Shown here: positions 14,095 through 45,330 of the stretch, one piece after another | Layout of the letters: the number at the start of each line of letters is the position of its first letter | Position numbering within the stretch: position 1 is the first letter of the stretch | Origin: a virus | DNA: 64,000 nt | IMG/VR virus record: IMGVR_UViG_3300013126_000031 | Span: 1 to 64,000 of that record | Strand: one strand, 5' to 3' | Program-made: the position numbers and the translations under genes | Notes under the pieces: generated by a model | The model's database searches: none | The model's input: the letters and a program-made list of their open reading frames with translations, nothing else | Told to the model about the DNA's origin: nothing

Positions 14095-15046
14095 CTAAAC
14101 ATTTTACTTTCCAACCATTAGTTGATTTATTTTTACTTTTTAATTTAAAATTAATAACACCATCAATTATATTTTCTTTTCTAGGGTATTGTAACCCATT
14201 TTTATTAAAAAATTCTCTGAAATTAAACGTTTTATATGTTTTACCATCTAAATCAGTTATTATCCATCTTTTGGATGTAGTGCTACCAAACTCACCATTT
14301 TTTAACCTAATATCATCTTTGTGTATTCTATGAAAATTACCATCCCAATCTTTAGCTGTAATAAATCCAATTCTTATTTCAGATAATTTATTTTTTAGTT
14401 CAGCACTATGTTTTCTACCTTTATTATGGTGTTTGTATTTGTCTTTATTATTATTAAACTCTTCTTTAGTTATCATTTTTTTATTATTAGTTTCTAATTC
14501 TATAACTGAAACTAAACCAACTGTATGTCCAGAAAGGTTTATATCAGAATCAAAAACTTCTTTAGAAACTCTAACTTTTTCATTTGTTAATACATTAATA
14601 GCGACAACTTCATTGGTTTTACCATACATTGGATTGTCTTCACCATACATAGGGGTCAATTTATGATATTTACCTTTTTCATGGTTGTCTTTAGCTATTT
14701 TTGATAACATTGTTTTGTGTTCATCTGTAATCATCATACCAAAAAAACCATTTATATTAGCTAAAGATTCATTCATATACTCATTTGACTTAACAACATT
14801 TCGTTCTTTTTGAACCCTCAATTCTTCAGCTAAAGCATCTTGTCTAGTTCCATGATAACTTAATATTTCCGATTTAAAAAGTTCTCTATTGTTTTTAACT
14901 TCTATCTCAAAAATACTTTTCCATCTTTTAGATTTAACACTACCTAAATAACCTTTATTAATTTTTTCCATACTAGTAGACCCAATATAATATTTTGGTA
15001 ACTTATTACCGCTATATGTAACTAAATAAACAACATATTTTCCCAT
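14087..15046 (-). CDS. GIY-YIG homing endonuclease
   Basis: Start taken at 15046 (MGKYVVYLVTYSGNKLPKYY), which follows a late-type box at about 15048-15072; the frame is open 16 codons further. VVYLV and YYIGS are the GIY-YIG strands. Two short repeats (PMYGEDNPMYGKTN) and a C-terminal WIITDLDGKTYKTFNFREF module are typical DNA-binding parts of these nucleases. It sits between the RNA ligase and a hypothetical gene with an 8-nt overlap. Confidence 0.85.
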   Translation of the reverse strand: MGKYVVYLVTYSGNKLPKYYIGSTSMEKINKGYLGSVKSKRWKSIFEIEVKNNRELFKSEILSYHGTRQDALAEELRVQKERNVVKSNEYMNESLANINGFFGMMITDEHKTMLSKIAKDNHEKGKYHKLTPMYGEDNPMYGKTNEVVAINVLTNEKVRVSKEVFDSDINLSGHTVGLVSVIELETNNKKMITKEEFNNNKDKYKHHNKGRKHSAELKNKLSEIRIGFITAKDWDGNFHRIHKDDIRLKNGEFGSTTSKRWIITDLDGKTYKTFNFREFFNKNGLQYPRKENIIDGVINFKLKSKNKSTNGWKVKCLDE

Positions 15047-15095
15047 AATTAAACTATTTATTAATAAATATCTAGGTATTGTATGGAAAGACAAA

Positions 15096-15938
15096 CTATT
15101 TTAAAGAAAATTTAATAAAATTAACACCATTAGGACTTTTAAGACGTTTTTCTTTGAAAATAGATTTTAATTTATCTTTAATCGGGTTGGTAAAATTGGG
15201 TAATGATTCATTTTCAAACCAAATATTTCCATTTTCATCTTCATATGCAGTATTGTTTTCTAAAACAGAGAAACCAAAATGTTTAGCAACTGGACATTCT
15301 TCCTCAACAGCAATAGTCAATTCAGATAACTGATTTTGTACCAATTGTGGCATGTTAAAATCGATATCGATTGAGTGTGTAGAAAAGTCATCGATATTGT
15401 AAATTTTAGCATCATTATCCTTCAAATAAGAATAATCAACCCAATATGCTGGATTAGCTTTCAATTCTTCTTCAGTTTCAGTGTGTGGTGTAATTTTAAC
15501 ACCAAAAATAAAGAATGATTTAGGTAAGTTAGTAACACCAACACCTTTTTGAATATTAGCACCAGCCCACTCACCGTAAATGGTGATTGTATTTTTATGC
15601 GTGTCGATATTTTCATTTACCGCCACATCATGAAATAATCTCATGAATTCAACTTCATGTGAATGAGCAAAAAATGCAAACCCAGCATTATCTTTTTCTG
15701 GTGTGATGATATTCTCACGTGATTGAGCCCACATACCAGATGGCGCATTATATGAAACAGCAGCGTTAGTACCATGTATTTTCACAGTACCTTTGAATGC
15801 AATCGTTGGTTTTGGTAACGTTGGGTCATAGATTGCTTCTCCGTTATCATCTAAACCAACAAAATTATAATGTCTATTGATATTAGAAATTACTGTTCTA
15901 AATTGTTCAATAGATGGAAATTTAATCATTTTTTTCAT
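15096..15938 (-). CDS. rnlB: RNA ligase, T4 Rnl2 family
   Basis: A 280-residue nucleotidyltransferase with motif I at residues 51-58 (TVKIHGTN; K53 would be the adenylated lysine) and motif III-like IYGEWAG. This matches Rnl2-type ligases that seal 3'-OH/5'-phosphate nicks in RNA duplexes. It is followed by the homing endonuclease and preceded 10 nt upstream by the DNA ligase gene, forming a ligase pair. Confidence 0.9.
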   Translation of the reverse strand: MKKMIKFPSIEQFRTVISNINRHYNFVGLDDNGEAIYDPTLPKPTIAFKGTVKIHGTNAAVSYNAPSGMWAQSRENIITPEKDNAGFAFFAHSHEVEFMRLFHDVAVNENIDTHKNTITIYGEWAGANIQKGVGVTNLPKSFFIFGVKITPHTETEEELKANPAYWVDYSYLKDNDAKIYNIDDFSTHSIDIDFNMPQLVQNQLSELTIAVEEECPVAKHFGFSVLENNTAYEDENGNIWFENESLPNFTNPIKDKLKSIFKEKRLKSPNGVNFIKFSLK

Positions 15939-15947
15939 TTTTTTATT

Positions 15948-17342
15948 TTAAACAGTTAAACCTATTGCTGCATTTTGTATTTCAATACACTCGTCAAGTG
16001 AGTTAGCTTCTGATTTGTCATCTCTAAAGTGTTTAAACGCTGGATATAACAACGAGTAAGCACCAGTATGGTCAAAAGATAACCCAGAACACTTAACTTC
16101 AATAATTGTACCTAATAACTTATCTTGATTTTCTGTAATTTCAGTCATAAGTGCTTCAGTTAACCCTTGTGGTCTTGTTTTTAACTTACCACATGATGTT
16201 TCAGCATTAAAAGAACTGATTACATTCTCGTTTTTCGTACCTTTAGTACCATAATTAAACCCAGTTATAACCAAATCCAATGTTAATTCCAACTTCATCT
16301 TGATTTGATGTGTTGGTTTACCATCTTTCCATTCACCATCGTAAGCTTTTAAGATAGTCCCTTCTTCACCACGACCCAAAATCTCTTGGAAATGGTTCAT
16401 AGCTTCTTCATATGTGTTAACAACCGTACCCTCTACGATAGATACACGTGTTACATCGATTGCTTTTAACGCTCTGTTTAATTCAATAGCACGTTTGCTG
16501 TATGGTACAGTAGATTTAGCATCAAAATACTCATCAACACTAATTCTATCCCATACTGTATATCGTATTTTAGATAAAGCTTCATCAAAATCACCATGTT
16601 TTTCAACAAACGCTGATAATTTCTTTTCGTTTTCCTTATCAGTACGACTATCTCTCTTACCACAGATGTCAATTATAGATGCAATAATACCGTTTGACTC
16701 ATAACGTGGTATACCATCCATTGTTAACTCACCATTTAAGACACAATCCTCTAGTTGTGCAAGTTCTTCAGCAAATTTAGCACCAGTCACAATAGTAGGT
16801 TCACCTTGTCTTGACTCCAATTCAACCTCACCATTTCTAATAACAGCGTTACAGTAACGACCATCCATTTTTACTTGTGATATACCTTTACCACCTTTTT
16901 CAAAAATCTTACGTGCTTTTTTCTCATCAAATGATACAGCACCCATGTATGGTGTTTCTTCAATCAACCCTTTAAATAGTTTGTTGATAAAAGTTGTACC
17001 CATACCAATTTTACAATCTTTATCGATAATACGTTCAATGATATACGCATCATCAGCAGATACATTCTCTAACCAAATTGTTAACTTATCAATTGCATTC
17101 TGACCAGTAATATCACGGTTTGCAATTTCCATAAGCATACCCAACGCTTGTTCCAATGTCCAAGACACTTCATTATGTGTGTATTCTGGTACTCGTTTGA
17201 TGTAAAACTTAACTCGTTTAGAGTTAGCCATATAAAGTACTCGTCTTAACAACTCATTGTCAGTGTATTTCTTTAATACATCAATCTTAGCATTGTTACC
17301 ACTTGTTGATGCAATTTCGTCAAAGATTTCTTTAATTGTCAT
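15948..17342 (-). CDS. ATP-dependent DNA ligase (T4 gp30-like)
   Basis: 464 residues with motif I QVKMDGRYCN (K158 adenylated), ELTMDG as motif III-like, and a C-terminal EVKCSGLSFD with the OB-fold motif. Size and layout match T4-type ligases, which join Okazaki fragments and repair nicks. Promoter with -7 TACATTTG at about 17362-17371. It shares an operon with the Rnl2-like gene. Confidence 0.92.
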   Translation of the reverse strand: MTIKEIFDEIASTSGNNAKIDVLKKYTDNELLRRVLYMANSKRVKFYIKRVPEYTHNEVSWTLEQALGMLMEIANRDITGQNAIDKLTIWLENVSADDAYIIERIIDKDCKIGMGTTFINKLFKGLIEETPYMGAVSFDEKKARKIFEKGGKGISQVKMDGRYCNAVIRNGEVELESRQGEPTIVTGAKFAEELAQLEDCVLNGELTMDGIPRYESNGIIASIIDICGKRDSRTDKENEKKLSAFVEKHGDFDEALSKIRYTVWDRISVDEYFDAKSTVPYSKRAIELNRALKAIDVTRVSIVEGTVVNTYEEAMNHFQEILGRGEEGTILKAYDGEWKDGKPTHQIKMKLELTLDLVITGFNYGTKGTKNENVISSFNAETSCGKLKTRPQGLTEALMTEITENQDKLLGTIIEVKCSGLSFDHTGAYSLLYPAFKHFRDDKSEANSLDECIEIQNAAIGLTV

Positions 17343-17375
17343 ATGTTTTTAATTTTATAATACAAATGTATAAAA

Positions 17376-17885
17376 TTAATTTGATTCCACCAAATTTATT
17401 TTCAATAATTTTTCTAAATGTTCCCACAATTTGTGTGCTGAAACGGGAGTGCTCAAATACAAAGCACCCTTAAACTCTTGATATTCTTTAGCATACATAT
17501 CAATTTTACCACCATGTTCAATGTTAGCAATTCTATCAGCTAACTTTAAAATAACAGCATCTGGATTACTAGCAGTCTTTGGAAGGGTTTTTGATTTCTT
17601 CTCTTTACGGTTTCTACCTAACTCATCGGTTACACAATAAACCATTTCGGCAATTTCCTCACCAAAATGTCTTTTCACATCATTGTAACTTAATCCAGTA
17701 TCCTCTAGGATATCATGTAAATAACCAGCTATAATGAATTTACCAGAATAACCGAATCTTTTTAATACATCAACAACATCATCCAAATGTTTTTCGTATG
17801 GAAACACTTCATCATACGTTTGTGAAGAATGAGCTCTCTTGGCTACCATTCTTGCTTCTCTGTAATTCTTCTCACTATAAGTCAT
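17376..17885 (-). CDS. MESH1/SpoT-like alarmone hydrolase
   Basis: A 169-residue HD-domain protein with H33, LHDILEDT (HD at 57-58, ED at 61-62) and VILKLADRIANIEHG (D117). This is the order of the (p)ppGpp hydrolase domain of SpoT and of small alarmone hydrolases. It would remove (p)ppGpp, and so counter the stringent response or a toxic alarmone synthetase. Overlaps the next gene upstream by 4 nt. Confidence 0.85.
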   Translation of the reverse strand: MTYSEKNYREARMVAKRAHSSQTYDEVFPYEKHLDDVVDVLKRFGYSGKFIIAGYLHDILEDTGLSYNDVKRHFGEEIAEMVYCVTDELGRNRKEKKSKTLPKTASNPDAVILKLADRIANIEHGGKIDMYAKEYQEFKGALYLSTPVSAHKLWEHLEKLLKINLVESN

Positions 17886-18250
17886 AACTCTTTTTTTCTT
17901 TTTTCTTCGTGTGTATCACACAATGTTTTTATCCAACCACCATCTCTACGTTCACCTTTCTCACCACAAACTTCACATATCTCATATGATAATCTTTCGT
18001 ATGTTAATATTACTTCTTGCATCTCTGGTGTCGGTTCTTTTATGTAGAAATTAAGTCCACCAAACTTCTCTTTTGACAAATACATGTGTCTATCCCATCC
18101 CAATGATATAAGTTCATCTATGAGGTTCTTTAATAGCTGAAACCAACCCTCACCAACACCAAACACATATGGGTTAGTGCGGTTGACACCTCTCCAACTA
18201 TAAACACCACCAATCGATACTAGATATTCTTCAAATTGTTCTTTATTCAT
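17882..18250 (-). CDS. Conserved phage protein with CxxC
   Basis: 122 residues, starts MNKEQFEEYLVSIGGVYSWR. The C-terminal part reads CEVCGEKGERRDGGW and later LCDTHEE, which looks like a metal site. Contains GWDRHMYLSKEKFGGLNFYI, a stretch I associate with widespread phage hypotheticals. Coupled to the alarmone hydrolase gene. Function unknown. Confidence 0.7.
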   Translation of the reverse strand: MNKEQFEEYLVSIGGVYSWRGVNRTNPYVFGVGEGWFQLLKNLIDELISLGWDRHMYLSKEKFGGLNFYIKEPTPEMQEVILTYERLSYEICEVCGEKGERRDGGWIKTLCDTHEEKRKKEL

Positions 18251-18528
18251 TTTTTACTTTCTTTTAATATTCCCCAATAAGTCCCCAAAGTTCCCCCTAT
18301 CAAATAAGCTAATATGGGTAAAAATTCACCATGCATAATAGAATTACCACCGATAGACATAGAAACCAACCAAGCTAACCCAATACCATTGCCACTTATA
18401 ATTGCTGGTAGTATTCTTCTTTCAGATGTGTAAATAACATTGATTGTTCTCAAATATATAAACACTATCTGACTAACTAATACCACCAACGCAGATAAAT
18501 AAGGGTTAGATAAAATATAATTCATCAT
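18247..18528 (-). CDS. Small membrane protein
   Basis: Start taken at 18528 (MMNYILSNPYLSALVVLVSQ), just after the stop of the RNA ligase gene. Three hydrophobic segments are visible, about residues 10-27, 42-60 and 65-88. It looks like a small membrane accessory protein. Coupled to the downstream gene by a 4-nt overlap. Confidence 0.65.
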   Translation of the reverse strand: MMNYILSNPYLSALVVLVSQIVFIYLRTINVIYTSERRILPAIISGNGIGLAWLVSMSIGGNSIMHGEFLPILAYLIGGTLGTYWGILKESKK

Positions 18529-18529
18529 C

Positions 18530-19654
18530 TTATAACATCTTATATAACGTTTTATCGTCATAGTTAAACATAAAATCCTCAACAGATTCAATTTTACGGT
18601 CTTTCAACCCAAAATACAATCCAGTGAACATTTTCACATCATATTTCTCACAAACTTCAAAAACAGCTGCCGCATATTTTTTTTGTTCTTCTTTTGTTAC
18701 GTTTTTTGGTCTACGCAATTGTAATTCATCCCAAACAACATTCAATTTACCAACCAAAGCATCGTAAGATACTTTAAGACGTAAAAGTTCATCTTTTCTT
18801 TCTGGGAAAGTAGATGCAAATTCTTCTATCTCATTAGTTTTCACGATAGTCAATATATTGTGTTCAGCAGTTTTACCTTTCAAGTGGTGAACCGCAACAT
18901 ATGCTGGGTTTTTAACTTTAACACGATTGTCATTACCATCACGTACAACATACCCTTCTTCAGACCATGGCATACCTTCAAATGTTTTCAACAAGTGACC
19001 AATATTTGATGCGTTTATATCAAAAGATTTAACCAATGGTACACCTATTGATATAGCAACCATTTCTAAGTCTTTTCCAGACAACTCAACTAGTGTTTCT
19101 CTGTTTCTAACTGTCAACAATGTTGCAGATGATTCACCATGTGGTTTAACAACTATATTATATGGTGTAGTCAACTCAAAAACGTATATATAATCTTTAT
19201 TTAACAAACATTCGTTAAATGTATATTTGTTATTTAGAGTATCCCAAAACAAATCGTTAAATGTAGTACCATTTTTGTTGTTTACTTCACCTTCACCATT
19301 AGCAGTACCAGTAGTACCAGCATACCAAGTCATATCATGCCAGTCATAGTACACTTGTATCATAGTACCATCTAATTTTTCAAGTACTTGTGCTGTATTC
19401 CAATCTATTTTAGCAGCGTTTCCTTCTTCAGCGTTGAAGAATTTACGAAAAGCCAATGACATTACTTTCCATGTACCTTTTTCTAAGATGATTCCACGAC
19501 AATCTTGCATCTCTGGCAAAGCCATAAGAGTTGGAGATACTAATTGGTTATATTTTAGTAAAATTTTTGATGGGTAATGTTTACAAATTAAACTAAAATC
19601 ATTTATAGCTTTTTCCAAACCGTGTGTTCTTAAATAATTTTGTATAGCTAACAT
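18530..19654 (-). CDS. rnlA: RNA ligase, T4 Rnl1 family
   Basis: 374 residues with motif I LEKLDGTMIQ (K93) at the position known for T4 gp63/Rnl1, and a preceding CRGIILEKG segment as in that family. Rnl1 rejoins tRNA cut in the anticodon loop by host anticodon nucleases. Promoter with -7 box at about 19677-19685. Together with the kinase-phosphodiesterase at 20961 it would make a complete tRNA repair set. Confidence 0.9.
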   Translation of the reverse strand: MLAIQNYLRTHGLEKAINDFSLICKHYPSKILLKYNQLVSPTLMALPEMQDCRGIILEKGTWKVMSLAFRKFFNAEEGNAAKIDWNTAQVLEKLDGTMIQVYYDWHDMTWYAGTTGTANGEGEVNNKNGTTFNDLFWDTLNNKYTFNECLLNKDYIYVFELTTPYNIVVKPHGESSATLLTVRNRETLVELSGKDLEMVAISIGVPLVKSFDINASNIGHLLKTFEGMPWSEEGYVVRDGNDNRVKVKNPAYVAVHHLKGKTAEHNILTIVKTNEIEEFASTFPERKDELLRLKVSYDALVGKLNVVWDELQLRRPKNVTKEEQKKYAAAVFEVCEKYDVKMFTGLYFGLKDRKIESVEDFMFNYDDKTLYKML

Positions 19655-19719
19655 ACTTTTGATTTTAAATGTTAGACAAATGTAGTAGTAATATTTTAAT
19701 AAAACAAATAAAAGGATGA

Positions 19720-20073
19720 TTATTTTTCATCATCGTTTTTATCGTTATCTTTTTTTCTCATCTTATTGATTTTCTTGACGAACTCTTCATAAGTTTCATC
19801 ATCTAATCTTTGATTAAACAAATCCTTTATTGGATTTTGTTCCTCATGCATAGCATCTAATATCTTTTTTGATGAAAACATGGATACCAAGTCCGAAAAC
19901 TTAAAAATATCATCATCACCACCAATCAACAAACCACTCATAAAGATTAAAATAGTGCCAACTTGAGCTAATGCTATATCTTTGTTTTCTCTACCTTCAT
20001 TCATTAGAGATTGACCCATTTTCATGAATTTGGCACTCAAATCCAATCTTCTATCGATTTCTTTTCCTTTCAT
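19720..20073 (-). CDS. Hypothetical protein, possible one-TM, charged tail
   Basis: Start taken at 20073 (MKGKEIDRRLDLSAKFMKMG), after the stop of the Nudix gene. A hydrophobic stretch (VGTILIFMSGLLIGG) is followed by acidic and then alternating K/D residues at the C-terminus. No family recognised. Confidence 0.6.
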   Translation of the reverse strand: MKGKEIDRRLDLSAKFMKMGQSLMNEGRENKDIALAQVGTILIFMSGLLIGGDDDIFKFSDLVSMFSSKKILDAMHEEQNPIKDLFNQRLDDETYEEFVKKINKMRKKDNDKNDDEK

Positions 20074-20108
20074 AAAACTATTTTTAACAAATATACTAAA
20101 TAAAACTA

Positions 20109-20765
20109 TTACTTGCAATAATAACTTGAATCGATTCTGATAGTAACACCATATTTTCTGGATAATGCATCTAACCTAGTATCAAGTTTCTTATCTTCAC
20201 CGAATGTTTCTTCCAATTCACCCATTTCATCAACAAAATAAATCACGTATGAATTATCACCCCATGATTTTCTTACGAACTCAACTTTTATCTCACCTTT
20301 GAAATGTTCGTTAATCGCTTTTGAAACATCTTCTTTTATAGCTTTAACATCTACATTGTATTTGTATTGAATACCCATGTCATTCATAGATTCAGACACT
20401 AATTTGTTGTATTTACCAAATCTACCGTTCACCAAAACTTCCATTGGTTGCCATTTAACAACATGTGGTTCATTATGGTCTATTGTACCAGAATAATCAG
20501 CCAAATAAGTGAAACCCATAAAACCATCTTTATGAATTGCAAATATAAGTCTTAGGTTGGTGACATCTAAACCAGTTTCTTCTTTGGTTTCACGAATAGC
20601 TGTGACTTTAGGGTCTTGACCATCTTCTGGGTCCATCTTACCTCCAGGTAATCCAAAATCATTGTGGTCGTCTTTTCTAGAAACGCCTAAAATATATCCC
20701 TCTGGGTTAATCAAAACTACTTGTGCTGAAACTTTAATATCTTTATCAATCATCATATCTTTCAA
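20109..20765 (-). CDS. Nudix hydrolase with C-terminal extension
   Basis: The Nudix box reads GGKMDPEDGQDPKVTAIRET followed by KEETGLD, with a small insertion relative to the consensus. The N-terminal strand VSAQVVLINPEGYILGVSRK is typical. About 80 further residues follow the domain. It would hydrolyse a nucleoside diphosphate derivative; the substrate is not predictable. Overlaps the upstream gene by 20 nt. Confidence 0.85.
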   Translation of the reverse strand: MKDMMIDKDIKVSAQVVLINPEGYILGVSRKDDHNDFGLPGGKMDPEDGQDPKVTAIRETKEETGLDVTNLRLIFAIHKDGFMGFTYLADYSGTIDHNEPHVVKWQPMEVLVNGRFGKYNKLVSESMNDMGIQYKYNVDVKAIKEDVSKAINEHFKGEIKVEFVRKSWGDNSYVIYFVDEMGELEETFGEDKKLDTRLDALSRKYGVTIRIDSSYYCK

Positions 20766-20964
20766 ACTTTGTTATTTTTAAATTAGAGTCAATGAAAATA
20801 TCCGCAATATTTAATATTTCTCTAACATGGAAAATCTCAGTTTTAACATCACAAAGAATGTTATTATCTGGAACAAATTTTATTTTGTAAAGGTTCCCTT
20901 CAATCCATAATACCTCAGCATATACTAACCCCCATCCTTTTAAATGTAATTTAACGTCACTCAT
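20746..20964 (-). CDS. Hypothetical protein, 72 aa
   Basis: MSDVKLHLKGWGLVYAEVLW suggests a small beta-barrel-like protein. It overlaps both neighbours, the RNA-repair enzyme upstream by 4 nt and the Nudix gene downstream, so all three are one operon. Confidence 0.6.
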   Translation of the reverse strand: MSDVKLHLKGWGLVYAEVLWIEGNLYKIKFVPDNNILCDVKTEIFHVREILNIADIFIDSNLKITKFERYDD

Positions 20965-21893
20965 TGTTTTTTGATTTCAGAAACAACTCCATTAACCATA
21001 AATTTCTTAATGGGTTGCCATTTTGTTATTTGATTACTCATTGCTGGTTTACCACCATCTGGATTAACCGCAATAGTAATGTGTGGTGTTTCATTTTTAG
21101 ATTGGTAACCACTAACCTTTACAGCCATAGCCATATCAGATAAACCTAATTCACCAACAGTTAAAGTAACTTGTTTACCTAAATCAGTTTTATCTTTAAG
21201 TTCACCCAAATTTATTGTCATATGATGAGCAATTACTTTCCACCCCTCTGGTATTCTATCACCAATCATATCTAACAATGTTGTTCTAGATTGATTATCC
21301 AACAATACACAAGAGTACAACACATCAGATTGTTTGTACATATCTTTCGAGTCTAAAACACTTTTAAGCGTAAGAGGACCTTGAGCTGTATGACTAGCTA
21401 TCATGGCTTCAATCTTTTCTAAAGGTACACCGTGTGCGTTTCTTTTAGCCAACTCAGCTGCCTCTAAACCAGCAGTACCTATATCGACAAATTTAATGTT
21501 GTTATCAGCATAACCCATTTCCAACGCAGCCACAATATAAGCTTTGGACTCATTTTGTTTTATATTTGTATTGTCTATGATTACTGGACTAATACCAGAT
21601 TTCATAGATGCAATAGCATTCTTTAAATTTGTTGAGTGAGCTCTACTTAATGGTGTAAAATCTTTAGATGCTATCATCTTAGCAAAAAATTCATTGTAAT
21701 CACCACCAGCTTCAATAACATCATCAGTCGAGTGTATTTTACCTTGACCAACAAGTGACTTAGCTTTTGTTGATTTTCCAGCACCTGGGATTCCACGCAT
21801 AACAATGAGTTGTTGATTAGGTTTTGTTACTGTAACACCTAGGATATTTTTGGACATAGATTCCCTTAATATTTGTTTAATATTTTCTTTCAT
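20961..21893 (-). CDS. Polynucleotide kinase fused to 2H cyclic phosphodiesterase
   Basis: Residues 30-180 are a P-loop kinase (MRGIPGAGKST, K40; IIDNTNIKQNES). Residues 195-310 have two HxT motifs, HHMTINLG at 223 and PHITIAV at 270, the signature of 2H phosphodiesterases such as the CPD domain of fungal tRNA ligase. The fusion can open a 2',3'-cyclic phosphate and phosphorylate a 5'-OH, which are the healing steps before Rnl1 sealing. The N-terminus MKENIKQILRESMS resembles a capsid-targeting peptide. Promoter -7 box at about 21896-21904. Confidence 0.85.
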   Translation of the reverse strand: MKENIKQILRESMSKNILGVTVTKPNQQLIVMRGIPGAGKSTKAKSLVGQGKIHSTDDVIEAGGDYNEFFAKMIASKDFTPLSRAHSTNLKNAIASMKSGISPVIIDNTNIKQNESKAYIVAALEMGYADNNIKFVDIGTAGLEAAELAKRNAHGVPLEKIEAMIASHTAQGPLTLKSVLDSKDMYKQSDVLYSCVLLDNQSRTTLLDMIGDRIPEGWKVIAHHMTINLGELKDKTDLGKQVTLTVGELGLSDMAMAVKVSGYQSKNETPHITIAVNPDGGKPAMSNQITKWQPIKKFMVNGVVSEIKKQ

Positions 21894-21942: not shown

Positions 21943-22611
21943 TTATGAATAATATTCATCATAAATGTCTTGGGTTAAGCCGAAATCAACAATAACAATA
22001 ATATCCTCACCATTTCTATTAACAATACCATATGAGTTTAATCTCATTAAATCACCAGCTGGTGAATCAGTATTTAACATAAATTCACAAATAGTTTGTG
22101 TAAATTGATTTTCATCTAGTATTTCTTTGTGTGCTTCAGTCATATCATAAAAAGGTTTTCTACCTTTGTTTGTTAATTCAAAATTTTTAAGATATCTACC
22201 AAATTCATCAAAGTTAATACCTTCTAATCTTTGGAAATCAGATTTCTTAACTTTTTTAGCCAACTCCATTTCCACCCATAAATCATCTGGGTGATATTCA
22301 ATAGTTCTAGCTAATATTTCATCAAAATAACTATCGCCACCCCATTGTATTTCGGTAGAACATTGAGCCAAACCTTTAGCGTTCTTAGCTAATTTTAATA
22401 CTTTGGTATCGTCAACTAAATAAACTATTCTTGATGAACCAGAAGAAATTTTTCTTAAATGCTCATTACAATATTTAATTCTTTGAGTAAAATTTGTTAA
22501 CGATTTAAATTCGTCCATATTAAAACTTGATGGATATTCTTCACTCATGAACCTTTCAATAAGGTTATATGTCATTTCTTCAGAAATTCTTTTTTTAATA
22601 AAATCTTTCAT
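21943..22611 (-). CDS. Protein-kinase-like fold protein
   Basis: Residues 36-66 hold a glycine-rich loop (ISSGSSRIVYLVDD) and VLKLAKNA with a candidate ATP lysine; near the C-terminus IIVIVDFGLT looks like the metal-binding DFG. A clear HRD motif is missing, so activity is uncertain. The N-terminus (MKDFIKKRISEEM) is of the shared capsid-targeting type with an ISE pattern, and an ATATTTATA box lies at 22636-22644. It may be a packaged kinase-like effector. Confidence 0.6.
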   Translation of the reverse strand: MKDFIKKRISEEMTYNLIERFMSEEYPSSFNMDEFKSLTNFTQRIKYCNEHLRKISSGSSRIVYLVDDTKVLKLAKNAKGLAQCSTEIQWGGDSYFDEILARTIEYHPDDLWVEMELAKKVKKSDFQRLEGINFDEFGRYLKNFELTNKGRKPFYDMTEAHKEILDENQFTQTICEFMLNTDSPAGDLMRLNSYGIVNRNGEDIIVIVDFGLTQDIYDEYYS

Positions 22612-22645: not shown

Positions 22646-23581
22646 TTAATATTTTTGGTTATTTATCTTCATAGCACTTCCATCACTATAAAGGTAAATA
22701 ATTAACCCATTATAGTCACCAGTAACATCTTGACCTAATGTGTTCACTGTTTTAATAACATATGGTTTATCTTTTATTTTTGTATCAACTGAAATAATTT
22801 CACTATATTCAAACTTACCATCATAATCAGTTTGTTTTAATCTATAATAAGTAATTATTGGTTGTACATTTGTGTCATGGAACTCATAATATAATTGATG
22901 TAAAGAATAACCAGCACCTTCTATATGGTCAACAATATTAAAAACATAACCATCATAGCTTTTTTCAATTGTAAAATAATCGTTGTTGATTTCAGATGCT
23001 GTTGACCAAAATAAAATATTGGTTTCATTCTCATACTTACCTTTAAAATATAATAATGTAATTGGTAAACCAATTGGTGGTGATTCTACTATTGTAACAT
23101 CATCTATATAAATCGATGTCGGACCACCATATACAGTGTTAGCAACTATTTGAAAATACATAACACCAGTATATGATGCTATATAAGTATCACTCCATTC
23201 ATACCACGTTGAAAAATTTGAATTACAGTTTGAATTGGAATAGCTGTCTGAACTTAATAATGTTGTCTGATTAGCAGTTTCATTTGTGTTTATGGTTAAA
23301 CTACAAATTCTTTTAGTCCAAAATGTTATAGTATAAACATACCCATCTTGAACATTAATCGGAATATAAATATATTTACCATTGTTATTTTGAGCACTAG
23401 ATAATCGTAATGCATATGCACCAGAACGTGCGTTTCCAACACCATAATTGCTTATAGCCCACCCAGATGGTGTTGTGGTTAACCAACCACTTGGTGCTGT
23501 AGCAGAAAATTGCTCATTTATTAGCGTTGTTTGACCGAAAGAATATATGGTCATTAACAAGAAAATTATTATCAGTCTCAT
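22646..23581 (-). CDS. Secreted host-like protein with T9SS-type C-terminal module
   Basis: Start at 23581 gives signal peptide MRLIIIFLLMTIYSFGQ. A jelly-roll domain follows, and the C-terminal half has LPITLLYFKGKYENET, LFWSTASEINNDYFTIEKS and YYRLKQTDYDGKFEYSE, the linker typical of Bacteroidota type IX secretion cargo, then a short YSDGSAMKIN ending. The gene was probably captured from a host. It may display an adhesin or carbohydrate-binding protein during infection. Confidence 0.85.
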   Translation of the reverse strand: MRLIIIFLLMTIYSFGQTTLINEQFSATAPSGWLTTTPSGWAISNYGVGNARSGAYALRLSSAQNNNGKYIYIPINVQDGYVYTITFWTKRICSLTINTNETANQTTLLSSDSYSNSNCNSNFSTWYEWSDTYIASYTGVMYFQIVANTVYGGPTSIYIDDVTIVESPPIGLPITLLYFKGKYENETNILFWSTASEINNDYFTIEKSYDGYVFNIVDHIEGAGYSLHQLYYEFHDTNVQPIITYYRLKQTDYDGKFEYSEIISVDTKIKDKPYVIKTVNTLGQDVTGDYNGLIIYLYSDGSAMKINNQKY

Positions 23582-23636
23582 ATCATATTGTTTATTAATA
23601 AATACCAATATACTGATAAAAAATTTATTAATCAAG

Positions 23637-23722
23637 AGGAGAGCAGAGGAATCGAACCTCACACCAAAATAGGTGCGTCACGATTAGCAGTCGGACCCTA
23701 TCGCCATCAAGGATTACTCTCC
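23637..23722 (-). tRNA. tRNA-Ser(GCT)
   Basis: Class II tRNA: acceptor GGAGAGT/GCTCTCC, loop CTGCTAA with anticodon GCT, long variable arm CACC/GGTG, T-arm GAGG/CCTC. One mismatch in the anticodon stem. Confidence 0.85.
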
Positions 23723-23728
23723 ATATTG

Positions 23729-29593: not shown

Positions 29594-30709
29594 TCATTTT
29601 AAAAGTTTTTTAAAGTTATCTTTCTCAATACTTTGTATTGCTTTACCCAATTCTGGACCAGGTTTCAATCCCATTTTATCCATAACTTCTGGACCAGTAA
29701 CACTTAAACCAAATTTTAAAAACGCATCAACTAACTTTTCATTAATACCTTCTAATTTAGAAAATTTAGTTATTTGCTCTGGTGTTATACCAGAATGTTT
29801 TTGTGCTTTTTTAAGTATAACAGCTGTATCAACAGATAGTTTTAATAACCCAACTAAAAATACAACACCTTTAATTTCTTCGGCTGAGTATTTTAATGTG
29901 TTTAATTGTTTATTTAACATATCGATATCGTTATGCTTCAATAATGTTGCCAAAATTATAATTGGGTCATTATCCTCAATAAATCTTTTGTCAACTTTTA
30001 ACCCTTTAAAGACCCAATCAAATAATCCGTATTTGTCAATCATTTTTAAAAATGATTTAACTGATTTAGCTGATTTTATCCCTTTTAAAAATTCATCTCT
30101 AATTCTTTCACCAGATATACCTTCAAGACTTGCATCTTTTTTTAATGCAGCATCTGTTGATGGGTCTAGCTGATTTCCAAACCTACCAGCAAATCTTATC
30201 GCTCTAAGTATTCTAAGTCTGTCTTCGCCAAATCTATCTTCTGGTGAACCAACTGTTCTTACAACACCATTTTTAAGGTCTTCCACACCACCAACAAGGT
30301 CAACAACCTCTTGTGTATCTATATCATAAAATAAAGCGTTAATTGTTAAATCACGTCTTTTAACATCGCCTTCTATGTTTGTAAAAGACACAGCGTCTGG
30401 TCTTCTACCACCAGATAAATCATTTCTAAAAGTAGCTACTTCATACTCTCCCATATCAGTAAAAACATTGATAACACCAAAAGCTTTACCAGTTGGTAAA
30501 GTTTTAAGACCAGCTTTAGCCATCATTTCTTCAACCTTGTCTGGTATAGCATCTGTTGCCAAATCGTAGTCTTTAGGTTCTTTACCTAACAACGCATCTC
30601 TAACAGCACCACCAACAACAAATAATTTAAAACCATTATTTTTAAACACATTAGCTATTTCTAAAATGTCTTTAGGTATTGGTATATCAAATTTAATTCT
30701 CTTTTCCAT
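29594..30709 (-). CDS. cca: CCA-adding tRNA nucleotidyltransferase
   Basis: 371 residues. The N-terminal catalytic domain has LFVVGGAVRDALLG and KDYDLAT (DxD), followed by TFRND and RRDLTINALFYD, as in class II CCA-adding enzymes or poly(A) polymerases. Most phage tRNAs and the tmRNA here lack encoded CCA, which makes this enzyme directly useful. Host-type promoter at 30712-30746; it follows the FKBP terminator. Confidence 0.92.
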   Translation of the reverse strand: MEKRIKFDIPIPKDILEIANVFKNNGFKLFVVGGAVRDALLGKEPKDYDLATDAIPDKVEEMMAKAGLKTLPTGKAFGVINVFTDMGEYEVATFRNDLSGGRRPDAVSFTNIEGDVKRRDLTINALFYDIDTQEVVDLVGGVEDLKNGVVRTVGSPEDRFGEDRLRILRAIRFAGRFGNQLDPSTDAALKKDASLEGISGERIRDEFLKGIKSAKSVKSFLKMIDKYGLFDWVFKGLKVDKRFIEDNDPIIILATLLKHNDIDMLNKQLNTLKYSAEEIKGVVFLVGLLKLSVDTAVILKKAQKHSGITPEQITKFSKLEGINEKLVDAFLKFGLSVTGPEVMDKMGLKPGPELGKAIQSIEKDNFKKLLK

Positions 30710-34533: not shown

Positions 34534-34582
34534 ATAATTTCATTTCTCGTGGCGTGTTGTTTGAGAATGAATCTGTTAGAAG

Positions 34583-34936
34583 TGGAGATAATGGGATTCG
34601 AACCCATGTGTTGAATATTCTTCGATGCTTTCTACATGTTTAGGTCATGATTTTCTAACCATCCGAAACTTTCCTTAATTTTATAGTGGTTTTGGTTCCA
34701 CTAGTATTCATACCATAGATGGTTTACCATCATCTCGTTAGTGGATTACCACTATCAGCAGTGTTAGGCAACTGCAAGCTCTCCGTTAGAAACGAATGTC
34801 GCTTCGTCAAGGAAATTTTCTGATACGATTAAATCGTTGTCATTTCTTGTTCTAATAGTATTTTTTAAAGTGCTTCCAATCTAGCACTACATGCTTACTA
34901 CCTACGACTATACCCAGTCAATACCGTCATATCCCC
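34583..34936 (-). ncRNA. ssrA: tmRNA (one-piece)
   Basis: The 354-nt RNA starts GGGGATATGACGGTATTGAC and ends with a T-arm (ATGGG-TTCGAAT-CCCAT), TATCTCC and discriminator A. GGGGATA pairs with TATCTCC. In the middle an open tag frame ends ...GELAVA-stop at 34764 and begins about NDNDLIVSENF near 34844, so the tag is long (up to about 27 residues). Several pseudoknot-type hairpins follow. CCA is not encoded. With host SmpB it would rescue stalled ribosomes and tag phage or host proteins. Confidence 0.9.
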
Positions 34937-43244: not shown

Positions 43245-43463
43245 TTATAACGTTCTAAAAATTTTTTTAAAGAAATTTGAAACCTTTTTATACCATGGTT
43301 GTTTAAGTATTTTGACTTTGTTTGGGTTCTTTTTTATTTCATCACCTAAACCATTTTTTAAATCCCCAATAAATTTTTTCTTTCTAATTTCTGTCATAAA
43401 CATATCGGCTTTAATTTCATTTTCGATTTGTTTAATTTCTTTATCAATCATTTTATCATTCAT
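43245..43463 (-). CDS. Small charged protein, 72 aa
   Basis: MNDKMIDKEIKQIENEIKAD, a charged helix followed by a lysine-rich tail (WYKKVSNFFKKIFRTL). Overlaps the Nudix gene by 4 nt. Confidence 0.6.
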   Translation of the reverse strand: MNDKMIDKEIKQIENEIKADMFMTEIRKKKFIGDLKNGLGDEIKKNPNKVKILKQPWYKKVSNFFKKIFRTL

Positions 43464-44017
43464 ATCCTATTAATTTTTTCAGCTAAACCTTTATATAACG
43501 GTGTTGGTAATTTATTTTTAGAAAACCAACCATAGTTTAAATTTTCATGGTCTAATTTAGGGATAAATTCTGACATTGTAAACCCTTTATAATAGTGAAA
43601 ATTTCTATTTTTCTCTGGTATATATTCTGTTCTGTCGTATTCAAATTGAATTAACTTGTCAGCATCTATACTTAATTCTTCACCTATTTCTCTGATAAGT
43701 GTATCAACTGGTTTTTCACCTTCATCCATACCACCAGACATAAGAGCCCATTTAGGGCTAGGGTCATTTCTATAAAGTAAAAAAACACGATTAGTTGTTA
43801 AGCATTTAATTAATACACCAGCAACATTCTGTTCACCTTCCGATTCATTCAATGTTTCATCATCGTATGGTGGTTCATTATCGTGACCACATTTATGACA
43901 AACATATAAATCAGATTTGTCTGATTCTGAAGCGTTCCAATGCCAATCACAAGCTTCACACGTTATGGTGAAATCTTTTATCGCCTCTTTTAATAAATTC
44001 TTAATAAGTGTTTTCAT
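43460..44017 (-). CDS. Zinc-ribbon Nudix hydrolase
   Basis: Residues 20-45 are a zinc ribbon (CEACDWHW ... CHKCGHD), and residues 65-185 a Nudix domain with box SGGMDEGEKPVDTLIREIGE then ELSI. The first 13 residues, MKTLIKNLLKEAI, match the shared capsid-targeting type with LKE. A late-type box at 44030-44038 precedes it. A packaged Nudix enzyme acting early on capped or alarmone nucleotides is a possibility. Confidence 0.8.
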   Translation of the reverse strand: MKTLIKNLLKEAIKDFTITCEACDWHWNASESDKSDLYVCHKCGHDNEPPYDDETLNESEGEQNVAGVLIKCLTTNRVFLLYRNDPSPKWALMSGGMDEGEKPVDTLIREIGEELSIDADKLIQFEYDRTEYIPEKNRNFHYYKGFTMSEFIPKLDHENLNYGWFSKNKLPTPLYKGLAEKINRI

Positions 44018-44424: not shown

Positions 44425-45330
44425 TTAAACTTTGTATGGGACGTATCTAACCAACCTTTTCATGAATTTATCAAATAAGGTTGGTTTGGTAGCCCAATTT
44501 TGAGCGGTTGCAACGAATTGATAAAAGTTGTGTCTTAACCCTCTAAAATTTTTAGAACTTACACCATTTTCAGTAAACAATCTAATAACGCCATCACTAT
44601 AATACTCTTTATACAAAACATTTGCTGAAAATCCATTTTTCAAACTTTGTATAATATACCACAAACTTTTAATTAAATCATTTTTAGTTTCCTCATCAGT
44701 AACTAAATTTAAATTCTTAGTTATTGTTGTAATAAATTCATGTGAAAAAGCATCAAATTCATATGGTAATTTATCATATTCAATTTCTTTATCATTAAAA
44801 TTTTTCGCTATTTTTTTGTTCACAACTTTTGGGTCAGCAGCATGTATCAATTCATGTCTTATTGTTGATTCTAATTGATTCAAATTATTCATACTTAATT
44901 TAGCAACATTTATTGCTATACCATTGTTTTCAGTTTCAAAGTACGCTATATTGTTTGCGTTCTTATAATAGAAAAAACCAACCGATATTCTTTTGTTGCT
45001 ACCTCTTAAAGTTTTTACCTTATAAATTTTATAAAAGTCACCAGGTCTTACATAAGCACCAACAGTTTCAAAATTCTTATTAAATGTTTTAGTTTTATTA
45101 TCAACGATTTTAGGAAATATTTTTTTAATGGTGTTTTTTTCATCATTAGTCAACGATTGATGTTCACCTCGTTTAATTTTGTTTATACCACGATATAACG
45201 ATTTAACTATTGGAAAAACAACTGTACGAGTTATCTCATCAGCATCTGGTGAAACCCTATCAATAGTAATAATATTTGATTCGTCAACGTTTAGAACTTC
45301 TAAAAGTTTAGACTTAATAAAATCTTTCAT
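44425..45330 (-). CDS. Putative zinc metalloprotease, packaged type
   Basis: 301 residues with STIRHELIHAADPK, an HExxH zinc motif, in the middle. The N-terminus MKDFIKSKLLEVLNVDE is again of capsid-targeting type (LLE). A late-type box at 45341-45349 lies 11 nt upstream. A protease packaged in the virion and acting on entry is the working guess; the HExxH family is not identified. Confidence 0.65.
   Translation of the reverse strand: MKDFIKSKLLEVLNVDESNIITIDRVSPDADEITRTVVFPIVKSLYRGINKIKRGEHQSLTNDEKNTIKKIFPKIVDNKTKTFNKNFETVGAYVRPGDFYKIYKVKTLRGSNKRISVGFFYYKNANNIAYFETENNGIAINVAKLSMNNLNQLESTIRHELIHAADPKVVNKKIAKNFNDKEIEYDKLPYEFDAFSHEFITTITKNLNLVTDEETKNDLIKSLWYIIQSLKNGFSANVLYKEYYSDGVIRLFTENGVSSKNFRGLRHNFYQFVATAQNWATKPTLFDKFMKRLVRYVPYKV

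Follow-up and report, generated by a model that had tools for sequence, protein, structure and literature searches.

A probable tRNA-repair island with a predicted kinase-cyclic phosphodiesterase end-healing enzyme and a split RNA ligase in an uncultured phage

By which enzymes could a phage mend RNA whose cut ends are a 2',3'-cyclic phosphate and a 5'-OH? The question is raised by a gene cluster in the IMG/VR virus record IMGVR_UViG_3300013126_000031, in which one gene encodes a protein that joins a polynucleotide kinase (PNK) to a 2H-type cyclic phosphodiesterase (CPDase), in the neighborhood of genes for RNA ligases. The DNA analyzed, referred to as the window, is 64.0 kb of this 64.2-kb record; it is a fragment of a phage genome, and genes not seen in it prove nothing about the whole phage. 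Related IMG/VR stretches are designated by L-numbers and related records by G-numbers, G001 being a record of 306 kb, and (-) marks the minus strand. On balance, we consider tRNA repair, with a predicted PNK-CPDase as the end-healing enzyme, the probable purpose of this phage gene island.

The kinase-2H fusion

The fusion of a P-loop kinase to a 2H domain, which an earlier note on this DNA had read at 20961-21893(-), is genuine. The encoded protein of 310 amino acids was studied by Pfam, by an alignment of 14 sequences, by an AlphaFold (AF2) model, and by VIA-align to T4 PNK and CNPase. Its PNK domain (residues ~26-173) contains the P-loop GIPGAGKST (34-42), D57, D107-N110 and R151-N152, and is followed by the 2H domain (~187-309) with H224xT226 and H271xT273. 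Pfam placed AAA_33 on residues 29-168 (E=1.8e-9), and tRNA_lig_CPD (PF08302) on residues 239-291 (E=2.8e-4), the latter at 20.9 bits, i.e., below the cut-off of 23; a stand-alone 2H homologue in L017 exceeds this cut-off with 24.7 bits. In PHROGs, the protein matched polynucleotide kinase/ATPase families, plus a small unnamed family across the 2H part, and neither Pfam nor PHROGs gave a match to a HAD domain. The alignment covered the 2H part in all 14 sequences and also the kinase in 12 of them. Both H-x-T motifs were invariant (14/14), and their histidines are exactly the two that the earlier note had singled out, H224 and H271; the P-loop (S41-T42), D57, D107-N110 (DNTN) and R151-N152 were equally invariant in the kinase-bearing sequences (12/12).

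The AF2 model, built on the family alignment, had a mean predicted local distance difference test score of 89 and a predicted template modeling score (pTM) of 0.59. When compared with the PDB, residues 26-173 of the model aligned with T4 PNK (1ltq) at Z 13.6 and 2.4 A over 139 residues, and the kinase domain matched that of C. thermocellum Pnkp at Z 13.3, while residues 187-309 aligned with the mouse CNPase catalytic domain at Z 13.1 and 2.1-2.3 A over 121-122 residues. The closest solved relatives of the two domains are therefore T4 PNK and CNPase, respectively, and the 2H fold, for which the earlier note had proposed structure prediction as a check, is indeed present in the model. It is to be noted that T4 PNK was also found, weakly, by the sequence profile of the fusion family (E=8.7e-4). 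In a fold search against viral models, the top match was a 292-residue Sylvanvirus protein, aligned over its entire length, followed by giant-virus ligases; because of these matches, the kinase-2H architecture probably occurs in viruses of eukaryotes as well.

The gene also has a conserved setting. Allowing for genes gained or lost, the order KIN2H-NUDIX-o19720-RNL1-HD-DNA ligase-RNL2-PARP was found in about 15 IMG/VR contigs, with the fusion at 59-91% identity, and since the order recurs in so many contigs, the grouping is more than chance. In these relatives, two further small genes lie between the Rnl1 and HD genes, and the PARP gene is more distant; the distance between the fusion and Rnl1 is one to a few genes in every full-length relative that has long flanks. 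The fusion-family profile matched 15 of 18 related records, a count that includes two stand-alone 2H proteins, one split case and one weak match. Stand-alone 2H relatives were seen in crAss-like phages, Lak phages and L017, and one of the crAss-like genes is three genes away from a TROVE gene. Other phages carry a T4-type PNK-HAD protein near Rnl1, and in phage G a PNK-HD protein adjoins Rnl1, with KptA also encoded. The gp264 protein of Bacillus phage G, which the viral fold search had suggested as a second phage kinase-2H fusion, was rejected on its sequence, which is kinase plus HD.

These results bear on a different role for the 2H domain, namely that it acts mainly in counter-defense, destroying signaling nucleotides in the manner of Acb1 against CBASS, or an ADP-ribose cyclic phosphate, with the kinase as an accessory. 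Acb1 was in fact among the viral fold matches of the fusion (rank 24, E 1.9e-4), relatives carry Macro, NADAR and SIR2 genes that would handle ADP-ribose derivatives, and a counter-defense role for phage 2H proteins is named in PMC7824862. Nonetheless, the 2H domain ranks with CNPase in the PDB (Z ~13), its family profile is tRNA_lig_CPD, and in every full-length relative for which long flanks are available it is fused to a PNK and located near Rnl1. RNA repair accounts better than an Acb1-like role for the resemblance to CNPase, for the fusion to a PNK and for the neighboring ligases, and we regard counter-defense as an improbable main function.

Sealing, phosphate removal and the likely course of repair

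The nearest candidate for sealing the healed ends is an Rnl1-type RNA ligase of 374 amino acids (18530-19654(-); PF09511, E=3.9e-15) with motif I EKLDGT, which the earlier note had recognized correctly as Rnl1-like. It matched T4 Rnl1 in the PDB with E=1e-9, and a profile of 12 relatives improved this match to E=6.7e-13, aligned over T4 Rnl1 49-358 and reaching the C-terminal domain; TIGR02308 was also matched (E=8.3e-17), below its equivalog cut-off. To judge from these matches, the protein is a complete ligase of the T4-Rnl1 type. Among solved structures, searched up to E of 10, the family profile found only T4 Rnl1 entries and one chance match, and Trl1 was not found; because T4 Rnl1 alone was recovered, 2'-phosphate-dependent ligation of the Trl1 type is not indicated. 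The view of these genes as a yeast-Trl1-like set, put forward in the earlier note, therefore holds for the architecture of the healing enzyme but is not supported for the ligase.

From these data we infer the following course of repair. Host anticodon nucleases or similar RNases would cut tRNAs, leaving 2',3'-cyclic phosphate and 5'-OH ends, and the fusion would heal both, its PNK domain phosphorylating the 5'-OH and its 2H domain opening the cyclic phosphate, most likely to a 2'-phosphate if the chemistry is that of CNPase; the island would thereby serve against tRNA-cutting defenses. A ligase of the T4-Rnl1 type requires a free 3'-OH and works with 2'-OH ends. Since the adjoining ligase is of this type, a separate phosphatase probably removes the remaining phosphate before Rnl1 seals the break, and the best candidates for this step are the HAD_SAK_2 proteins of related genomes. 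RlaP, the CCA-adding enzyme, the HD protein, the phage tRNAs and the tmRNA, all described below, would handle other damage to translation.

The HAD_SAK_2 ('Swiss Army Knife RNA repair') phosphatases are separate genes in related records that carry the same fusion. G001 has two in tandem (264722-265637), and six others (G004, G005, G008, G009, G017 and G020) have one each, those of G008 and G009 containing one in-frame stop apiece. The tandem pair of G001 lies in a stretch (L091, G001:C1:261000-269000) that brings together NAMPT/NAPRTase, NADAR, Macro, SIR2 and a PRPP-synthase-like gene. Because relatives with the same fusion encode a phosphatase separately, that of the present phage is probably located elsewhere in its genome. 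In view of these genes, the claim of the earlier note that the 2H domain replaces the phosphatase half is not supported. It is more likely that the 2H domain adds a step, given the HAD_SAK_2 genes of the relatives and the division of labor proposed for jumbo phages, in which 2H proteins open the cyclic phosphate and HAD enzymes take off the linear phosphate (PMC7824862).

Several observations weigh against the proposed repair role. First of all, the pTM of the model makes the relative placement of the two domains uncertain. Second, T4 PNK has R38, which we take to be the acceptor-binding arginine that follows the general base, and the fusion family has no obvious counterpart, D57 being followed by D/A/S/T-V/L-I-E. 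Third, neither an HAD_SAK phosphatase nor KptA was found in the 64-kb window, and KptA, considered as the remover of the 2'-phosphate, was rejected for want of a credible match in the window record and nine related records, the two weak matches below cut-off being confined to G006; PNK3P (PF08645) was not found in the window record or in five related records. Lastly, a PARP-type ADP-ribosyltransferase (11169-12476(-); PF00644, E=4.8e-27), which stays close to the repair genes in relatives, and an ATP-dependent DNA ligase (15948-17342(-); PF01068, E=3.3e-12; phrog_114, E=7.4e-108) share the neighborhood, which is compatible with DNA repair too.

The last point can be extended into an explanation of its own, in which the island mends breaks in phage DNA: PARP would sense nicks, the PNK would restore the 5'-phosphate, the DNA ligase would seal, and the RNA ligases would be bystanders. 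The PARP and DNA ligase genes are syntenic with the fusion, and the lancelet PNK/CPDase favors a DNA oligonucleotide in vitro (PMC5434554). However, a 2H cyclic phosphodiesterase would be without function on DNA, for lack of a 2'-OH, and the same region holds two RNA ligases, the RNA-ligase-associated nucleotidyltransferase RlaP (7690-8883(-); PF10127, E=3.7e-24; phrog_388, E=2.5e-46) and a CCA-adding-type tRNA nucleotidyltransferase (29594-30709(-); PF01743, E=1.1e-35; phrog_2244, E=1.1e-58). Overall, DNA repair as the purpose of the island appears very improbable, and tRNA repair is preferred.

The split Rnl2-like ligase and other features of the window

The second RNA ligase, of the Rnl2-like type, had been taken as one gene in the earlier note; instead, its motifs I-IIIa and IV-V were found in two open reading frames (ORFs), with an endonuclease gene between them. 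The first half (half A) is encoded at 15267-15938(-), where residues 1-224 are homologous to about 45 intact relatives by tblastn, the homology ending at ~222-239. The ORF of half A as a whole (15096-15938) holds only motifs I (VKIHGTN), III (YGEWAG) and IIIa (FFIFGVKI), and corresponds to positions 2-204 of the 341-position ligase family phrog_548. Its last 56 codons, plus stop (15096-15266(-)), are carried by the insertion and absent from intact ligases. Most nucleotide changes in this tail are at third positions (12/16 against L019 and 21/27 against L021), and, with dN/dS (the ratio of non-synonymous to synonymous substitution rates) of 0.03-0.12, the tail is by this measure under strong purifying selection and evolves as protein.

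Next in the direction of reading is a GIY-YIG homing endonuclease (14087-15046(-)), 319 amino acids from its ATG, with the signature VYLVTYSG...YYIGST and matches to phrog_10820 (E=2.2e-26) and the homing endonuclease family phrog_314 (E=2.3e-11). The second half (half B; 13630-13998(-)) matches positions 166-330 of phrog_548 (E=9.3e-21) and contains motif IV (MIGEGIVW, read from an ATG directly before the motif) and motif V (RFKVKGEKH). Its ORF is open back to 14094, and in this longer version ligase homology begins only at about residue 31. The 87 nucleotides ahead of motif IV are without codon bias, and an ATG stands directly before the motif in 5/5 sequences examined; for these reasons half B probably starts at this ATG. 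Both half genes are open and selected, with dN/dS of 0.05-0.11 for half B and ~0.15 for half A (window against L019).

A single intact ligase is present in ~45 relatives, with 345-354 amino acids in the eleven that were read out, and the split recurs in five other contigs (L019, L020, L021, L024 and L043). In L020, most of the endonuclease has been lost, both ligase halves are kept, and ~370 nt of insertion remain. L019 and L043 are identical in the tail, the endonuclease and the 87-nt stretch and differ at 28/381 bases in half B, a pattern expected as the residue of recent homing transfer, although ordinary recombination could also produce it. A second interruption of the Rnl2-like gene, at residues 80-83, was found in L043, L066, L067 and L068 (~1.07, 1.34, 1.34 and 0.37 kb, respectively), the last of these giving no Rfam match.

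Could the split (13630-15938) be a self-splicing intron with an endonuclease inside, whose removal yields a normal Rnl2-like ligase? The ~370 nt left in L020 are of intron-like length, the same gene is interrupted a second time in relatives, and the 87-nt stretch ahead of half B lacks codon bias. On the other hand, Rfam recovered no group I or other intron, either from the window (E up to 1) or from L020 and L068 (E up to 10), a search that divergent introns may escape; the 5' part of the insertion evolves as protein, with the dN/dS given above; joining the flanks fails to restore exactly the G of the intact ...FSG|IGEG...; and the ATG ahead of motif IV is conserved in all five sequences. We thus find splicing an unlikely explanation. 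An intein was considered separately and rejected, as Pfam scans found no Hint/intein domain in half A, half B or the endonuclease.

The preferred reading is that the endonuclease gene inserted at motif IV and gave half A a new, selected C-terminus and half B its own start, and that the two halves most likely associate into a working ligase. More tentatively, and with chances that we put somewhat below even, the insertion may be a mobile element equipped to repair the damage it causes: with a tail for one half and a start codon for the other, it would leave every phage that it enters with a functional RNA ligase of two subunits. The present phage would use, besides this ligase, a PNK-CPDase fusion of a kind otherwise known from eukaryotic tRNA splicing. 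The split ligase makes it possible to test whether a selfish element can carry the parts that keep its target enzyme alive, as this one seems to do.

The fusion gene itself was found broken in three related stretches. In L110 (G014:C1:46500-50500; 1067-2658), the kinase runs in frame into a GIY-YIG endonuclease, forming a 398-aa ORF, and the 2H domain follows directly as an ORF of its own (129 aa). In L111 (G018:C1:7500-11500) and L112 (G021:C1:9500-12500), the kinase-2H genes are broken near the P-loop, with in-frame stops, and nuclease-like ORFs lie nearby (1965-2810 and 3034-3423 in L111; 2143-2763 in L112). The repair locus appears to attract mobile endonucleases.

Among the remaining genes of the cluster, the DNA ligase, the HD protein and the NUDIX protein had been left out of the earlier note. 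The HD protein (17376-17885(-); PF13328, E=1.2e-13) resembles small alarmone hydrolases and MESH1, with matches to Lmo0812 (E=2.1e-13) and to MESH1-type entries (2.7e-10 to 3.2e-8). Alarmone hydrolases reverse the pyrophosphorylation of tRNA CCA ends by toxSAS toxins. These toxins act in this manner within antiphage immunity (PMC11559606). That the HD protein takes part in tRNA repair is only a lead. The NUDIX hydrolase (20109-20765(-); PF00293, E=7.5e-14) is syntenic, as is a conserved small protein, o19720 (19720-20118(-)), which is 37-86% identical among relatives, has no credible family, and probably starts at the ATG that gives 117 amino acids (19720-20073). Between the fusion and the NUDIX gene is a small conserved ORF (20746-20964(-)) with no family match, kept in several relatives.

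The window also contains 19 tRNAs and a tmRNA, the latter at 34582-34936 and with the tag VSENFLDEATFVSNGELAVA. At 1192-1270, ARAGORN reported a tRNA with a four-base anticodon (ttta), which Rfam likewise scored as tRNA (41.4 bits), and at 23637-23723, adjoining two tRNA-Arg genes, a tRNA-Sec-like Rfam match of 37.9 bits (cut-off 47) is probably a long-arm tRNA-Ser missed by ARAGORN. A similar short leader, M-K-x-x-I-K-x-x-L/I-x-E (a pattern fitted by eye), was seen in the fusion and in the proteins encoded at 21943-22611, 43460-44017, 44425-45330 and 6263-6889, and proteins of L077 start with MNLLREYIR; the leader may serve these proteins in common as a signal for targeting or packaging. The virus is a large, uncultured bacterial virus, and its host is probably a member of Bacteroidota, because the ORF at 22646-23662 resembles, by eye, a Bacteroidota secreted protein, 2H relatives are present in Bacteroides and Prevotella phages, and the single match in a scan of cellular genomes was a contig of a Flavobacteriales metagenome-assembled genome, in the 2H part only. 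No close isolate of the lineage was found in the isolate-phage collection searched.

Relation to known systems

PNK-CPDase fusions as such are already known from yeast, lancelet and, with the kinase activity lost, CNPase (PMC5434554), and joint action of 2H, PNK and ligase genes has already been predicted for jumbo phages (PMC7824862). A phage PNK-2H fusion was found neither in the papers searched, one key RNA-repair survey not being among them, nor in the isolate-phage collection. With this locus, the PNK-CPDase architecture of tRNA splicing in fungi, plants and lancelets extends to tailed phages, where the gene is conserved next to Rnl1; this bears on the origin of the eukaryotic enzyme and on phage answers to tRNA-cutting defenses. 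It also raises a biochemical question: if the cyclic phosphodiesterase leaves a 2'-phosphate, as is probable, how are its products passed on to a ligase of the T4 type?

In the lancelet, as in the phage, the ligase is separate from the PNK/CPDase. The kinase-CPD part of yeast Trl1 and the lancelet BfPNK/CPDase likewise place a PNK-like P-loop kinase N-terminal to a 2H domain, and PNK-CPDase activity has been demonstrated for both (PMC5434554). In contrast to these, the phage protein has only 310 amino acids, with a compact 2H domain of ~120 residues, its kinase matches AAA_33 and T4 PNK and not the fungal kinase family, and its partner ligase is of the T4-Rnl1 type. Vertebrate CNPase has the same domain order, and phage residues 187-309 find their closest solved fold in its catalytic domain; however, it has lost PNK activity (PMC5434554), whereas the P-loop, D57 and R151 are invariant in the phage family, and the phage gene has no myelin-type context.

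The phage shares with the Pnkp and Rnl1 pair of T4 the PNK fold (Z 13.6) and a nearby Rnl1-type ligase, but a HAD phosphatase follows the kinase in T4 and a 2H domain follows it here. Streptomyces phage 'polynucleotide kinases' that matched fusion residues 20-292 were rejected as further kinase-2H proteins; as read from the sequences of Bmoc and Naboo, they retain the kinase and have a C-terminus that is HAD-like. The networks predicted for jumbo phages comprise PNK, 2H, ATP-grasp ligases, RlaP, CCA-adding enzyme, SAK-HAD and Macro/NADAR/SIR2, and the accessible parts of the two papers concerned do not mention a kinase-2H fusion or a split Rnl2-like ligase (PMC7824862; PMC9503650). The nearest parallels to the split ligase are nrdA/mobE of Aeh1 and gene 60/mobA of T4, in which a homing endonuclease in a critical part of the enzyme results in two polypeptides (PMC2988022). 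In the present phage, by comparison, the enzyme interrupted is an RNA ligase, at its motif IV, and the endonuclease belongs to the GIY-YIG and not to the HNH type; in addition, half A receives from the insertion a tail that is under selection.

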